Of a DNA stretch of 64,000 bases, positions 20,840 through 62,383 are shown piece after piece. Position numbers and translations under genes: made by a program. The stretch is from contig NZ_CP021421.1 in assembly GCF_002201515.1 (NCBI RefSeq), forward strand, positions 2,356,001 through 2,420,000. The letters run 5' to 3'. The DNA comes from Muribaculum intestinale (GTDB lineage: Bacteria; Bacteroidota; Bacteroidia; Bacteroidales; Muribaculaceae). Position 1 is the stretch's first letter, and the number at the start of each line of letters is the position of its first letter. The notes under the pieces are model-generated. The model ran no database searches. It was not told where the DNA came from and worked only from the letters and a program-made list of their open reading frames with translations.

Positions 20840-20859
20840 TATTGGGGAACGGGGTCTTA
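20838..20859. repeat. Solo end fragment of variant II, abutting element A
   Basis: AATATTGGGGAACGGGGTCT plus TA is identical to the right end of the element at 61813-61834. The last bases merge with the first bases of element A. The TAA stop codon of the upstream gene (20837-20839) reaches into it. Confidence 0.7.
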
Positions 20860-21211
20860 GAGCTTGTTTAATAATAAATGTTACCGTCAGGGCGGTCAGT
20901 CGTCGGACAGATTTTCGCTTGTGATGAGGGAGTTATGGGGCTCCATAACGACCGAAGAGCGGGCGGAAATATGCCGGCGAATGGCCGACGGGAGGTAATT
21001 TGTTTCATATAGTTGATATATTTTTGCATTTACCTTACAAGCAGCCAAGAGATTGTATAGGTTATAAAGTTACCTTTTGTCTCGTATATCTTGGCCGCTT
21101 TTCGCCCTATTCCTCAGTCATGTACATAAAGTACACTCCTTCGTCACATGTCGAAAATCGCCTCAAGCTATACGACCCTGTCGGCAACATTTATTATTAA
21201 ACAAGCTCTTA
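20857..21211. repeat. Dispersed repeat element A (two-hairpin, terminal inverted repeats)
   Basis: A 355-bp element with ends in inverted orientation: the right end read on the minus strand begins TAAGAGCTTGTTTAATAATA, and the left end starts (C)TTAGAGCTTGTTTAATAAT. Left module 20893-20987 folds into a long imperfect hairpin whose apex is GTTATGG-GGCT-CCATAAC (20932-20949). Right module 21083-21174 has outer arms CGTATATCTTG/CAAGCTATACG and apex TGTAC-ATAAA-GTACA (21121-21135). The AT-rich spacer runs about 20993-21075 and is bordered by GGTAATT and AGTTACC. No convincing open reading frame is present. Element B at 45208 is an inverted copy. Confidence 0.85.
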
Positions 21212-45207: not shown

Positions 45208-45570
45208 TTAGAGCTTGTTTAATAATAAATGTTGCCGCCAGGGTCGTATAGCTTGAGTCGATTTTCGACATGTGCCGAAGGAGTGTACTTTATGTACATG
45301 ACTGAGGGTCATGGCGAAAAGCGGCCAAGATATACGAGACAAAAGGTAGCTTTATAACCATTCAATCTCTTGCCTGCTTTAAAGCAAATGTAAAAATATA
45401 TTAACAATATGGAACAAATTACTTCCAGTCGGTCATTCGCCGGCATATTTCCACCCGCTCTTCGGTCGTTATGGAGCCCCATAACTCCCTCATCACAAGC
45501 GAAATCTGCTCGCCGACTGACCGCCCTGACGGTAACATTTATTATTAAACAAGCTCTTAAACAAGCTCTA
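45208..45570. repeat. Dispersed repeat element B, inverted copy of A
   Basis: 45208-45559 is a copy of element A (20857-21211) in the opposite orientation. First module 45245-45336 has apex TGTAC-TTTAT-GTACA (45284-45298); second module about 45430-45522 has apex GTTATGG-AGCC-CCATAAC (45468-45485). The ends again are TTAGAGCTTGTTTAATAATA and its complement. After the right end an extra copy of the last 12 bases (AACAAGCTCTAA) is attached to about 45570. The RluA-type gene starts 14 bp later. Confidence 0.85.
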
Positions 45571-45583
45571 AGTAAGTTTTGAA

Positions 45584-50762: not shown

Positions 50763-50862
50763 CTAAGATCTTGTTTAATAATAAATGTTACCGTCAGGGC
50801 GGTCAGTAATTTGTTTCATATCGTTGATATATTTTGCATTTACCTTTACCTTACAAGCTCTA
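50763..50862. repeat. Dispersed repeat element C, hairpin modules missing
   Basis: The left end (TAAGATCTTGTTTAATAATA, then ATGTTACCGTCAGGGCGGTCAG) matches element A through position 20900 of A. It then continues without a gap in the A spacer from TAATTTGTTTCATAT to CTTACAAG, and ends CAAGCTCTAA. Both palindromic modules are absent. Confidence 0.8.
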
Positions 50863-56825: not shown

Positions 56826-57594
56826 TTCCGTTGCTGTAACCTCTGTTCCGCTTGTGTCTCTTTACGATTCAGGCGAGGTGTATGCTGCAACTACTTTCCG
56901 TGGATTGAGCAAGGCTGATGATGCTTACTCCGGATTTTCGCTGTGCCACTATGTCGGTGATGAGGCATCGCACTGGCAGCAGTGTCGGGATGAGCTCGCG
57001 TCATGTCTCGGTATATCCGCTGATATGGTTGTGGTGCCAAGACAGACACACAGCGCGCGTGTGGCGGTGGTTGACAGTGTGCCTGTCGATAGCCGTGATA
57101 TTGATGGTGTCGATGCTGTGGTCACCGCATTGCAAGGAGTGGCTGTAGGTGTGAATACAGCCGACTGCCTGCCTCTGCTCCTTTGCGATGAGAAGGCAGG
57201 TGTGGTGTGTGCGGTGCATGCCGGATGGCGTGGTACTGTGGGCGGCGTCGTGGAAAATGCGGTAGACTGTATGGTGCGTGCCGGTGCGTCTGCCGGCGAT
57301 ATACATGGCTTTATCGCGCCTCATATCGGTGTGTGCTGTTTCGAGGTAGGCGACGAGGTGGCGTGCAGGTTTCATCCGGAAGATGTGGTGCATCTTGCAG
57401 ATGAGAAACCTCATGTAAACCTTTCTGCCGCGGTTGTGCGCATACTCGTGTCAAAGGGTGTGCCAAGAGAAAATATAACCGATATCGGAGAGTGTACGCG
57501 ATGCCGGAGCGACCGGTATTTTTCAGCCCGCGCTCTGGGTGTGGCTTCGGGTCGCAATTTCTCATTTATTATTAAACAAGCTCTAAATAGATGA
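56815..57594 (+). CDS. pgeF: Peptidoglycan editing factor / laccase-domain protein
   Basis: With the ATG at 56815 the protein has 259 residues. YfiH-type motifs: VPRQTHSARVAVVD (first His), GVNTADCLPLLLCDE (Cys), CAVHAGWRGTVGGVVENAVD (second His) and APHIGVCCFEVGDEV. Members act as purine nucleosidases/oxidases or hydrolyse L-Ser-containing muropeptides. The family end RNFSFI is followed by IKQALNR, which is encoded by a solo end fragment of the dispersed repeat (57564-57586); the native 3' end therefore seems replaced or extended. Stop overlaps the next start (ATGA). Confidence 0.9.
   Translation: MAADSVAVTSVPLVSLYDSGEVYAATTFRGLSKADDAYSGFSLCHYVGDEASHWQQCRDELASCLGISADMVVVPRQTHSARVAVVDSVPVDSRDIDGVDAVVTALQGVAVGVNTADCLPLLLCDEKAGVVCAVHAGWRGTVGGVVENAVDCMVRAGASAGDIHGFIAPHIGVCCFEVGDEVACRFHPEDVVHLADEKPHVNLSAAVVRILVSKGVPRENITDIGECTRCRSDRYFSARALGVASGRNFSFIIKQALNR
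57564..57586. repeat. Solo repeat end inside the pgeF 3' end
   Basis: ATTTATTATTAAACAAGCTC then TAA is identical to the last 23 bases of elements A/B apart from the final TTA/TAA. It lies inside the pgeF frame and encodes its last residues. Confidence 0.75.
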
Positions 57595-58394: not shown

Positions 58395-58959
58395 GGAGCG
58401 TATTATGCGACTGCAATCATGTGACGGGCTTAGACCCCGTTCCCCAATATTTGTTAACGCTGGGGCGGTCAAGCATCGAGCAGATGTGTTCGCGCAGTGA
58501 GGGAGCAATGCGGTTGCATTGTGACCGAAACAAGCGGACGCAGATGTATGACGATTGGCCGAGGCGAAGGTAATTTCTGCCACGGACAGCCGAGAATAAA
58601 TATGTCTGTGATGAACTCGGGATGAAGTTGAATTAAAGGAACCGCAACATAAACATTGCACACGCTGCCATCGCAATCGCGTTGGCGGTGTGAAGAATTT
58701 AATAGTCTGAAAGATTCAAGCCACGAGAAGGTACGTTCCACAACCCACCTGCCGCTAATCGGCTTGAATTCCGATGTGACGAAATTCGATTTCACACACT
58801 CCAATTCCACAAGCAATCCCTCTTTCAAGTTTTTTACTAAAGGTCCGCGATAGCCGTTGTCTGCCTTTAATAATCTGATCGTCGGATATTTGCAGGCCGT
58901 GTCAATTGCCAATCCAATCGCCCCCTTGCTGTCGTGGACATTTGCGCGTGATATAAATA

Positions 58960-60646
58960 GGGATATTCAGTTAATGGCTAACTGATTATTTGGCAGAGTT
59001 ATAGATATTTTGTAACTTTACAAAGAACCCCCGATGAACCCATCACGGGCTTATTCGGGGGTAATTCTTAAAAATAAATGTTCGTGAAGTTACGGAAAAT
59101 ATCTGAGATTACGGCCACGTTGCCGTTTACCGAGTTCGATTTTATGCAAAAATATCGCGAGAGTTTTGCCGTAAGCGAGCTCGGGCGCATCCATGCGCAA
59201 CTGCCATTGAAGGAGCTGGCAGAGAAAATCCGCTCGCATTTTCCCAAAACGCATCCTCAAGGCAACACGCCGATGTTCCCGCCGGAGGGAGAGGTGGCGC
59301 TGATGTTCCTCAAACCATATACCGGACAATCGGATGACGGCCTGATCGAGATGCTCAACGGCAACATACACATGCAGATGTTCTGCGGGGTGCTCATAGA
59401 TCCCGCCAAGCCCATAAAGAACGGCAAGATAGTCAGTGCTATCCGTCAGCGCATAGCCGGAGTTCTGGACATCAGAGAACTGCAGAAAATCCTGTATGGC
59501 AAATGGGGCGGCTCGCTGAGAAACAAGGATTTGTGTCTGACCGATGCCACCTGCTACGAGAGCCATCTGCGGTTCCCGACAGATGTAAAACTGTTGTGGG
59601 AATGCTGCGAGTGGCTTCAATCTCTAATTGCAAAGACCTGTAAGGCGCTGAAGGAACGGCTGCCGCGCAACAAGTATCGTGATATTGACCGCGCCAGACT
59701 CACCTATGCCAAGCATCGCAAACACAGCAGGGCGGCCACTGTCAAACTCCGCCGTCGATTGCTCGGCTTGCTTTCCAAACAGATAGGGCAATGGAACAGA
59801 ATCTGCAAGATACACACCGTTGACATCGCGCTCACCGCCGAGCAAAGCAAGCGTCTCTTCGCTCTTAAAGAGGTGTATCGACAGCAGAGAGCGCTTGCTC
59901 AGAAAAAGGAGGTGAAGAAACGCATCGTCAGCATAGACCGTCCGTACATCCGGCCCATCGTCAGAGGCAAGGAGAACAAGCGAGTGGAGTTCGGAGCCAA
60001 GGTCAACAACATCCAGATTGATGGAATATCATTCATCGAGCATCATTCCTTCGAAGCCTTCAACGAGGGCGTGAGATTACAGGAGTGTATTGAATATCAA
60101 CAGGAATTGACCGGAGTCAAAGTCGCCAAAGTCGGAGCTGACACCATCTATGCCAACAACGACAACCGGCGGTACTGTACCGAAAACGGCATAACGACAT
60201 GTTTTGTCCGCAAAGGCCCGAAGCCAAAGGATGAAAACACCGACATAAGCACAGCCCGACGAATAATCGGGACACTGCGCTCTACCGCCATGGAGGGCAG
60301 CTTCGGAAACCAGAAACAGCACTACGGTGTCAGCCGGATTGCTGCACGCAACTCCCGCAGCGAGACGCTGCTGCTCTTTTTCGGCATCCACATGGCAAAT
60401 GCCGCAACGCTTGCCGCCCGACAACTCGCCATCGAAGAAAAGAAGAAACAGCGAGCGTGAAAAATCATACTGTCACCTCACCTCCGAAACATATCGGAGG
60501 CGAATCAGTGTATCCCTATCTGTCCGAAATGTCATATTTTATGCGCCGAGAATTGAAAATTTGCCCTCATAATCAAAACAGCACCGCCATAGGGCGACCA
60601 CGCTCCATTTTCAGCTTGAAAAATCAAGCCATTAACTGAATATCCC
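58960..60646 (+). mobile_element. Complete insertion sequence (IS1182/ISNCY-like) inside the IS5 copy
   Basis: The 1687-bp element has perfect 20-bp inverted ends GGGATATTCAGTTAATGGCT (58960-58979 and, inverted, 60627-60646) and is flanked by the 6-bp direct repeat TAAATA (58954-58959, 60647-60652). One full-length transposase gene is inside. Removing it and one TAAATA restores the IS5 transposase frame locally. Confidence 0.9.
59078..60460 (+). CDS. DDE transposase (IS1182/ISNCY-like)
   Basis: The 460-residue protein begins MFVKLRKISEITATLPFTEF. The N-terminal domain (GEVALMFLKPYTGQSDDGLI, then LNGNIHMQMFCG) and the first catalytic Asp region CLTDATCYESHLRFPTDVKL are typical of large IS5-superfamily transposases such as IS1182 or the ISLbi1 group. 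The second Asp is in KVGADTIYANNDNR and the C-terminal MEGSFGNQKQHYGVSRIAAR holds the Glu. The frame is intact and ends match the element, so it may be active. Confidence 0.88.
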   Translation: MFVKLRKISEITATLPFTEFDFMQKYRESFAVSELGRIHAQLPLKELAEKIRSHFPKTHPQGNTPMFPPEGEVALMFLKPYTGQSDDGLIEMLNGNIHMQMFCGVLIDPAKPIKNGKIVSAIRQRIAGVLDIRELQKILYGKWGGSLRNKDLCLTDATCYESHLRFPTDVKLLWECCEWLQSLIAKTCKALKERLPRNKYRDIDRARLTYAKHRKHSRAATVKLRRRLLGLLSKQIGQWNRICKIHTVDIALTAEQSKRLFALKEVYRQQRALAQKKEVKKRIVSIDRPYIRPIVRGKENKRVEFGAKVNNIQIDGISFIEHHSFEAFNEGVRLQECIEYQQELTGVKVAKVGADTIYANNDNRRYCTENGITTCFVRKGPKPKDENTDISTARRIIGTLRSTAMEGSFGNQKQHYGVSRIAARNSRSETLLLFFGIHMANAATLAARQLAIEEKKKQRA

Positions 60647-60938
60647 TAAATATAGTCAGCGGGAATCCATTTAAATCTACGGCAAGATGTCTTTTTATAC
60701 CATTGATTTTCTTTCCTCCGTCTATTCCCTTTACTGATTGGTCCAGTCCGGTACGCACGCTTTGGCTGTCTATGACGGCAACAGTCGTTGAGCCGATTTT
60801 CTTAGCGAATCCCTTGCCGTGACATTCAATTCTTGGGTCAAACAGTCAAAAAATCCTATAGAAATCCACTTGCGGTAAAATTCATACACGGTACGCCATT
60901 TTGGAAAATCATTTGGCAGAAGTTTCCATTGACACCCT

Positions 60939-61480
60939 GAAGTCATCTTGACTTATTTTAAACATACAAAATACAATAAGGAGTGTTAAGTGTAATGATA
61001 AAAACACACCTAAACACTCCTTGAATTGATAGAACTCATAGATAAAGACACCATAAGAATGGAAATCCTGCCGTATCTGACAACCGTCAAACGAGGCTAC
61101 CCATGCAAGGGAGACCTTTGCGAGGTCATCCAGTGCATATTTAGCATGATGGATAACGCAGGAATTTCCATTGACGGCCTTTTCCTCAATGCCGATGCCG
61201 GATTTGATTGTCGCGATTTCAGAAAAAATGTGACAGTGCCGGAATCATTGCTAATGTAGATTCAACAATCATACCAAAAACGATGAGAAATATCTTTTGG
61301 ACAGAAAACTCCTGTCTCTCAGATATAGCATTGAGAGGACAAATGCCTGGATGGACTCTTTCCGATCCGTGCTCAATCGTTTCGACAAAACGGTTTCCAG
61401 CTGGAAAGGGTGGAATCTTCTGGCATTCCATGTGATATTTCTTAAACACATTAACAGACTCAAAAAGTCAAGATGACTTC
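60939..61480 (+). mobile_element. Internally deleted insertion sequence with intact ends
   Basis: Inverted ends GAAGTCATCTTGACTT (60939-60954 and, inverted, 61465-61480) enclose 542 bp; the triplet CCT is duplicated at 60936-60938 and 61481-61483. Just inside the left end is a hairpin GGAGTGTT.../...AACACTCC (60976-61020). It is inserted in the N-terminal part of the IS5 transposase. The interior holds only remnants of a transposase. Confidence 0.8.
61026..61478 (+). pseudogene. Transposase remnant of the deleted IS
   Basis: Starting near a TTG at 61026 the frame reads LIDKDTIRMEILPYLTTVKR, then GLFLNADAGFDCRDFRK; the remaining DDE part (AGIIANV, then YLLDRKLLSLRYSIERTNAW and WKGWNLLAFHVIFLKHINRL) is in other frames. 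Compared with full transposases a large central part is missing, and at least two frameshifts are present. Confidence 0.7.
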
Positions 61481-61831
61481 CCTGTTTTGATTAAGAAAAA
61501 CAAGGCATTAATAATCTTAAATATATCAGCCTTTGATTTCGTATTGAAAATTTCTGGAAATTTTTCTAAAATAAAGTTGCGCTGTCTAAGTGTCAAATCT
61601 GTAGTATATCCCAACCTAATCCAACAAGTTATAAATGCTTAAAATCATATAACTGAATTGGGGTGAAATTAATTGTGTGCTGATGTATAAAATTACCTTA
61701 TCATCGCATATCTCTGGCGCTTTTTGCCCTGTTCTTCAGTCACGTAGCTACGGCTACGCTCCTTCATCACAAGACAAAAATCACTCAGAGATATGCGACC
61801 CCAGCGTTAACAAATATTGGGGAACGGGGTC

Positions 61832-62383
61832 TTATTTTATGGGGCATTCGCCTCGCTGGGCGAAGTATTTCCATAGCGGAGCTGCCATAAGCGATTGCTT
61901 GATGCGGTCGTTGACGAGAAGGCGCTTTACTTCGTCGGGCTCGAGTACATGTACATTGATGTCTTCTGTCGGGTCGAGGTGTTGCTCGCCTATGAGTTCC
62001 ACGCCGGTGGCGATGTAGCAGTAATTTAGGTTGTTCATACTTGTGGGATTGGCGCTGAGCACCATACTTAGCTCCCATTCGCCACCTCCGAATCCTGTTT
62101 CCTCGGCCAGTTCGCGCTTTGCTGCGGCGAGGGGATCCTCTCCGGGTTCTACACAGCCTGCACATAATTCCATGAATATATCGTCGAGACCGTGGCGATA
62201 CTGTTCTACAAGCACCATCTTTCCATCGGTGGTGATTGCTATGATATTTACCCAGTCAGGATATTCGAGCACATAGAATTCATCCTTTATTTGCCCGTCG
62301 GGCATGCGCATTGTATCGCATCTGGCGGTGAGCCATGGCCGCTTTATTATGTAGCGGCTATCGGTAGTGGTCCATTTTTCCAT
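61832..62383 (-). CDS. NUDIX hydrolase (ADP-ribose pyrophosphatase type)
   Basis: The 183-residue protein carries the Nudix box GEDPLAAAKRELAEETGFGG within the usual fold, preceded by MVLVEQYRHGLDDIFMELCA, as in ADP-ribose or GDP-mannose pyrophosphatases (NudF-like). Substrate is not certain. Its stop codon TAA (61834-61832) is the outermost triplet of repeat element D, so the gene tail ends exactly at the repeat boundary. Confidence 0.92.
   Translation of the reverse strand: MEKWTTTDSRYIIKRPWLTARCDTMRMPDGQIKDEFYVLEYPDWVNIIAITTDGKMVLVEQYRHGLDDIFMELCAGCVEPGEDPLAAAKRELAEETGFGGGEWELSMVLSANPTSMNNLNYCYIATGVELIGEQHLDPTEDINVHVLEPDEVKRLLVNDRIKQSLMAAPLWKYFAQRGECPIK

Follow-up and report, generated by a model that had tools for sequence, protein, structure and literature searches.

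Positions 20,857 to 21,211 of the window (the whole 64,000-nucleotide stretch of the Muribaculum intestinale genome that was analysed) hold a short sequence with inverted repeats at its ends and two hairpins that face each other, and the locus raises the question of what kind of element this is and what the hairpins do for it. Our data show that this element (A) is a MITE of an IS5-type transposon group with TWA duplications, as is a second copy in the window (B), and that a third element (C) is a degenerate insertion sequence (IS) of the same group. In terms of function, we tentatively favour a role for the hairpin in the mobilisation of the elements that carry it.

Two MITEs and a degenerate IS

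The features are listed below, where bit scores are those of the hairpin model R1 and z compares the fold with dinucleotide shuffles.

20860..21208, plus strand: element A, a non-autonomous two-hairpin MITE of 349 bp (TIRs, TTA flanks, genome copies)
20860..20882, plus strand: left TIR of A, GAGCTTGTTTAATAATAAATGTT
20890..21001, plus strand: L-type hairpin module of A, inward-reading strand (107.4 bits; RNA MFE -55.1, z -6.5)
21067..21178, minus strand: R-type hairpin module of A, inward-reading strand (99.7 bits; RNA MFE -38.4, z -7.1)
21186..21208, minus strand: right TIR of A, reverse complement of the left end
45211..45556, minus strand: element B (L026), the second A-family copy in the window, between TTA at 45208-45210 and TTA at 45557-45559
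45241..45352, plus strand: R-type hairpin of B (98.6 bits; z -6.5)
45416..45526, minus strand: L-type hairpin of B (96.7 bits; z -6.1)
50767..50857 (end approximate), plus strand: hairpin-less truncated A-family remnant, matching A 1-41 and 136-177
58433..61831, minus strand: element C, a degenerate IS5-type IS split by two other ISs (matching ends; uninterrupted copy elsewhere)
58463..58576, plus strand: L-type hairpin of C, antisense at the 3' end of the transposase gene (98.0 bits; z -5.3)
58469..58912, minus strand: C-terminal piece of the C transposase (DDE_Tnp_1, E 1.4e-4; 22.2 bits, just missing the curated cutoff of 23)
61690..61801, minus strand: R-type hairpin of C, sense in the transposase leader (117.4 bits; z -11.7)

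Element A is bounded by TTA at 20857-20859 and at 21209-21211, and its TIRs are perfect over 23 bp. The original prediction of terminal inverted repeats around two facing hairpins was borne out by these TIRs and by the z scores of the folds, and so was the lack of a coding frame, as no ORF of 80 aa overlaps A and the longest ORF extending into it has 68 aa. A search of the genome (one contig of 3.31 Mb) with A returned fragments and 32 near-full-length copies of 336-350 bp, which are 93-97% like their own consensus. Exact 3-bp target duplications flank 28 of the 32 (TTA at 17, TAA at 11), while the other four lack an exact one. The copies are dispersed in the genome and do not derive from one recent local duplication, the case that had been named as fatal to the idea of a dispersed family. 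In two genomes of the same genus (G009 and G013), both flanks of window A were matched with A absent between them; the interval is filled with other sequence (about 200 bp and about 255 bp, respectively) and is not a clean empty site. No transposase was found between A-like ends in the genome stretches fetched, A had no blastn match in plasmids or phages, and the scan of the window with Rfam at the gathering cut-off returned one tRNA and nothing else.

Window A abuts the end of a C-type element, and a lone A-family end (GAGCTTGTTTAATAATAAATGAG) lies at 57561-57583, close to the end of a predicted gene. Two further loci of the genome, L042 (308784-308943) and L044 (1163541-1163700), are each 160 bp long and derive from A by deletion; their breakpoints differ, and both loci retain the two ends and the L hairpin alone. 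A-family remnants without hairpins were seen at L053, at L047 and at window position 50767.

The same architecture had been predicted at 45208-45559 and at 58430-61834. The former is an A-family copy, in the orientation opposite to A, whereas the latter has other ends and the relic of a transposase. A partial end of another element (AGAGCTTGTTTAA-type) lies at 45557-45572, directly beside B, and the same kind of adjacency was observed at L028, L052, L056, L057 and L059; it looks as if TTTAA in the element's own terminal repeat had served as the target.

Element C lies between TTA at 58430-58432 and TTA at 61832-61834, and its terminal repeats (GACCCCGTTCCCCAATATTTGTTA) are unlike those of A and B. 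A second copy elsewhere in the genome lacks the two inserts, measures 1182 bp with 34-bp TIRs, and encodes a degenerate DDE_Tnp_1 transposase (E 5.7e-19); in a relative in G008, the transposase frame is open over 279 aa. The transposase start could be projected for nine C-type loci, and in all of them the R-type hairpin lies upstream of it in the sense orientation, with 154 nt between the hairpin core and the start for the R-type hairpin of window C (L063); the coordinates at L138, L110 and L118 place it likewise. C is thus an IS5-type IS that bears both hairpin types of A; A and B are related to it but non-autonomous, and their ends are different. With its DDE transposase, TIRs and short target duplication, C is a member of the IS5 family. 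The TWA duplications would fit a place in the IS1031 subgroup, which duplicates TNA.

Of the two ISs inside C, one (about 58950-60650) has GGGATATTCAGTTAATGGCT-type ends and an ORF of 460 aa that matches DUF772 and DDE_Tnp_1_2 just below cutoff, and the second (about 60936-61480) is smaller and broken. Another IS5-type IS, of 898 bp, has four near-identical copies in the genome (49954, 85468, 1667053 and 2669752), in which no hairpin was found with the hairpin model.

A likeness to REP/BIME or MITE elements had also been proposed. MITE is the correct term, given the TIRs, the TWA duplications, the 32 copies and an IS5-type relative. A and B do resemble REP/BIME elements and their RAYT systems in that hairpins are dispersed between genes. 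However, REPs are short and are not known to have TIRs or target duplications, and that identity is not supported, given the TIRs, the target duplications and the 95-nt hairpins inside TIR-bounded units; the DDE relatives of IS5 type also set A and B apart from it.

The nearest known systems are the IS5-derived MITEs of Porphyromonas gingivalis, namely BrickBuilt, MITE239, MITE464/PgRS and MITE700 (PMC4596501, available part). Like A and B, these are short, multicopy elements of Bacteroidales with ends in common with IS5-family ISs, and the BrickBuilt repeats are predicted to form long stem-loops. Unlike A and B, BrickBuilt consists of 23-nt tandem repeats with target duplications of varying length, and the available part of that paper mentions no core like that of the hairpin described here.

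Fold, core and strand of the hairpin

The hairpin is about 95 nt long, adjoins the terminal repeat at each terminus and reads inwards from both ends, so that each module is a separate hairpin read from its own terminus. The L and R types differ in sequence, and A and C each carry both. The six hairpins of the window gave z scores of -5.3 to -11.7 relative to dinucleotide shuffles, and for each of them none of 200 shuffles folded as well. Five of the six modules have, with minor deviations, the flank pattern that had been proposed as common to them, and the left module of C follows it loosely.

Covariation supports the fold. Two-sided changes were found in 34 of the 36 pairs and 91.8% of the cells pair, in an alignment of 84 distinct rows that was fitted to the model and includes some weak or opposite-strand hits. 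The covariation score was 0.70, compared to 0.24 in shuffles and at most 0.14 when the alignment was slid; as R1 was built from sequences of the M. intestinale genome, the alignment (A2) is biased towards the structure. Forty hits aligned separately with MAFFT revealed the core 5'-GA-RG-GA-G ... U-GA-CY-GA-3', in which 11 of the 14 positions are alike in 38-40 of the 40 hits and the three others vary as R(/U), U/C and Y. This core consists of two tandem G.A motifs that are two base pairs apart. A third, outer tandem G.A is found in the A-type modules and is variable elsewhere. The sequence after the stems is of the GACGGGAGGTAATTT type, and an intrinsic terminator is ruled out because no U-tract directly follows the stem.

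No Rfam family matched the hairpins, either in the window at the gathering cut-off or at 11 further loci at E up to 1, and a known RNA family was rejected on these grounds for the loci scanned. The literature search found no published description of the hairpin or the elements. The statement that no named family resembles it holds with respect to Rfam and the literature, with one candidate exception. The Transposase-resistance RNA motif (Weinberg 2010) is listed for several phyla, has its RNA nature marked as ambiguous, and is linked to transposases by its name; judged by name and table row (PMC2864571, available part), the hairpin might be this motif.

On the inward strand, with a strand-symmetric aligner that scores G.T and A.C equally, G.T outnumbered A.C by 58:10 in R-type and 73:27 in L-type hairpins, and by 54:18 in Muribaculaceae hits made non-redundant at 80%, compared to a ratio of about 1.2 expected from base composition. 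The excess was modest in the non-redundant GTDB pattern set (100:62, among the matches listed) and not significant in the D family, the smallest units described below (15:9 in 8 sequences). These counts rest on a weak filter for long arms, which 73 of 77 sites pass and shuffled arms also pass in 33 of 77. The inward strand was also the more stable one in all of the 72 distinct sequences folded, whether RNA or DNA parameters were used. Taken together, our data show that the inward strand is the one that folds, and they do not separate RNA from single-stranded DNA.

Occurrence beyond the genome

The hairpin of the dispersed family that had been predicted extends beyond the 32 A copies to related Muribaculaceae. 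At least 101 R1 hairpin matches were found in the M. intestinale genome itself, where 150 of 1838 first-look candidates were scored. With 61 candidates scored per genome, so that counts are lower bounds and absences are soft, R1 matched in 21 of 61 genomes including this one, with 21 of 37 inside the family and 0 of 24 outside it. A broader model, R2, for which 15 candidates were scored per genome and the same reading of counts and absences applies, matched in 10 of 247 genomes of the order; seven of these, from six families, lie outside Muribaculaceae. The core with at most one mismatch was seen in the loci of two of the seven (G116 and G219, of the same family and genus), once exactly and twice with one mismatch. 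The fold is kept in G212 (E 1e-11) with the inner G.A motif altered. The remaining R2 hits outside the family are uncertain as members, and the core was not seen in their loci.

The core pattern was found in at least 120 stretches of GTDB genomes. About 61 of 80 loci among the matches listed have titles that name Bacteroidales taxa by a hand count (Muribaculaceae, Prevotella, Prevotellamassilia timonensis, Barnesiella, Paramuribaculum intestinale and others), some of which we presume to belong to that order. Other records among those listed name Sphingomonas, Sphingomonadales, a proteobacterium, Desulfocapsaceae, Chitinophagales and a methanotrophic symbiont; these taxa are taken from the record titles, and the names given to MAGs can be in error. 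Named isolates with the core pattern in their genomes include Paramuribaculum intestinale DSM 100749 and Prevotellamassilia timonensis. None of 394 further Bacteroidota genomes, drawn at random, matched the core pattern, and the element is therefore patchy in its distribution.

When the arms were shuffled with the core kept, 71 of the 77 full-arm sites among the matches listed folded better than all 60 shuffles. The distant loci with a long hairpin are L255 (Sphingomonas), L208, L235, L247 and L251, and two other Sphingomonas loci (L220 and L222) have the core and form a different outer stem. A Ruminococcus MAG locus (L212) was rejected as a chance match, with a fold no better than its arm shuffles; the same was true of the folds at L183, L193, L217 and L229, and L221 was beaten by one of its 60 shuffles.

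Of 90 GTDB sites among the matches listed, 50 are flanked by terminal repeats of 11 bp or more and 39 by repeats of 14 bp or more, whereas shuffled flanks gave 0-1 sites at the shorter length and none at the longer. These repeats belong to many different types. At 40 of the 90 sites, the stretch searched contained no terminal repeat of 11 bp, and flanks were cut at 20 sites. The same core and fold recur in small elements with differing terminal repeats, mainly in Bacteroidales and also in Sphingomonas, Desulfocapsaceae and other records. Carriage as phage or plasmid cargo was considered and rejected, the D family having no blastn match in phages and the Sphingomonas locus L255 none in plasmids; in viral contigs, the core pattern was found in 2 stretches, compared to 1 for a roughly reversed control.

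Apparent selection on the fold and a proposed role of the hairpin

Variants among the copies were divided into private ones, found in one copy, and shared ones, found in several. Among the 32 A copies, hairpins and spacer have the same density of private variants (0.18 and 0.19 per site, respectively). Shared variants, in contrast, are rarer in the hairpins (34 of 189 sites, compared to 31 of 94 in the spacer; p 0.007). Shared variants keep the pairing in 11 of 19 cases and private ones in 5 of 23 (p 0.026); when the pairing is read on the other strand, the counts are 5 of 19 and 9 of 23. A similar pattern was observed in G009, where 18 of the 20 copies fetched entered the count. Pairing is kept there by 8 of 10 shared and 12 of 33 private variants (p 0.028; 4 of 10 and 11 of 33 on the other strand), and shared variants are again rarer in the hairpins (24 of 189, compared to 31 of 94; p 1e-4). 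Read on the other strand, the difference in pairing between shared and private variants thus vanishes or is inverted in both genomes. Unlike in the M. intestinale genome, private variants in G009 are also rarer in the hairpins than in the spacer (p 0.007). These small counts from two genomes support selection of the fold in multiplying lineages more than in settled copies.

No orientation bias of the hairpins relative to host genes was detected (tandem sense 16, antisense 14, convergent 11, divergent 11) at the 52 of 90 GTDB sites, among the matches listed, that lie outside ORFs and have both neighbours called, with crude gene calls. Together with the variant patterns, this lack of bias makes a role in propagating the element more likely than a role for the host. 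A function at the level of the host was rejected on the same lack of bias and on the absence of slower decay of settled hairpins in the M. intestinale genome, G009 being less clear in this regard.

Because the fold is kept in elements without genes, we take the hairpin to be a cis-acting mobilisation module bound by a transposase or by a common host factor, a tentative choice that falls somewhat short of being probable. An effect on transposition, the binding and an RNA form of the hairpin are all inferred from the sequences. The inward strand would fold once it is single-stranded, most likely in a short nascent transcript that enters the element and less likely in exposed single-stranded DNA. 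The putative binder, whether transposase or common host factor, would recognise the G.A core, and a bound copy would be the better substrate for a transposase made elsewhere. Elements without a transposase could thereby compete with the parent IS despite its cis-preference, and their hairpin would persist as the terminal repeats are altered to match other active ISs. Within an IS, the leader hairpin may also damp translation of the transposase.

The main rival, which we regard as possible but unlikely, is that the hairpin shields the element by preventing outside RNA that enters it from being translated or elongated, such that no transposase is made from read-through mRNA, and that the MITEs merely inherited it. 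Such shielding is known from IS10, IS50 and IS200, which have structure in the leader near the transposase start. The inward direction of the hairpins fits this, as transcription from either side first meets a sense hairpin, and so does the sense R-type hairpin ahead of the transposase in the C-type loci. The ISPpu9 transposase, too, is restrained by a structured leader near its start (PMC8450116, available part). In contrast to the leaders of all four ISs, the core of the present hairpin is conserved across many ends and kept in elements without genes. Against the shield, the MITEs encode no transposase that it could protect, and the fold is nevertheless selected in their spreading lineages. 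The hairpin is also present in elements whose ends are of many kinds and, lacking a U-tract, is not an intrinsic terminator. A signal at the DNA level, in which the transposase would read a hairpin formed in single-stranded DNA, or a cruciform, at the time of replication or strand transfer, is distinctly less likely still. Transposases of the IS200/IS605 and REP/RAYT systems do read hairpins in single-stranded DNA, the greater stability of the inward strand holds with DNA parameters in all 72 sequences, and selection during propagation would suit a transposition signal. However, two-hairpin elements have their hairpins on opposite strands, unlike single-strand transposons, and DDE transposases cut duplex DNA, although neither point is decisive.

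It is improbable that the hairpin instead spares the host the harm of an insertion, for instance polarity, such that copies with a hairpin survive. Hairpins at both ends would serve either orientation, and the rarity of private variants in the G009 hairpins agrees with this. The equal density of private variants in the M. intestinale genome does not, nor does the indifference of the listed GTDB hairpins to the orientation of flanking genes. That the hairpin has no function and is a frozen piece of an ancestral IS carried along by recent bursts could account for the closeness of the A copies to their consensus, but hardly for a core that is invariant among module types or for covariation at 34 of 36 pairs, and this explanation is very improbable.

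The smallest units are those of the D family of the M. intestinale genome, which measure 161 bp and consist of a terminal repeat, one hairpin and a terminal repeat. Of 18 loci, 16 could be parsed, eight with GAGATTGTCTAAA ends, five with GAAACTGTTTAAA ends and three with others. Without the outer 15 bases, the bodies are 94.9% alike across the GAGATTGTCTAAA and GAAACTGTTTAAA sets (40 pairs), compared to 98.4% within the former (28 pairs) and 92.7% within the latter (10 pairs), and both termini match within an element. The sequences suggest an exchange of ends between D elements, with the two end types differing at only 3 of 13 positions. A multicopy IS of 870 bp has the same GAGATTGTCTAAA ends; no hairpin was found in it with the hairpin model, so its transposase does not need one. 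This speaks against the mobilisation module, as does the 898-bp IS, in which the model found none either.

In its broadest form, the proposal would be that several phyla share a mobile, structured module of nucleic acid. This double tandem-G.A hairpin would recruit DDE transposases in trans for elements without their own and let such elements pass from one transposase to another as their terminal repeats change, with the hairpin and not the ends as the lasting hereditary unit. We consider this rather unlikely, and the small difference between the D end types slightly lowers its standing. By the usual view, a DDE insertion sequence requires no more than its ends and a transposase. If true, a strand-specific structured module that is selected in gene-less elements and persists where the ends differ would be a third part, would help to account for the ability of MITEs to get round the cis-preference of bacterial transposases, and would provide a new protein-binding RNA or single-stranded DNA motif to seek across phyla.

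The 870-bp IS, which is of IS5 type, is joined to a D MITE at four loci (L129-L131 and L132, near 309, 2322, 2558 and 582 kb). L129-L131 have a common junction, with L129 forming a 1034-bp unit between TTA triplets, and L132 is arranged differently. Such a unit of IS plus D is a possible snapshot of an IS gaining a hairpin end.
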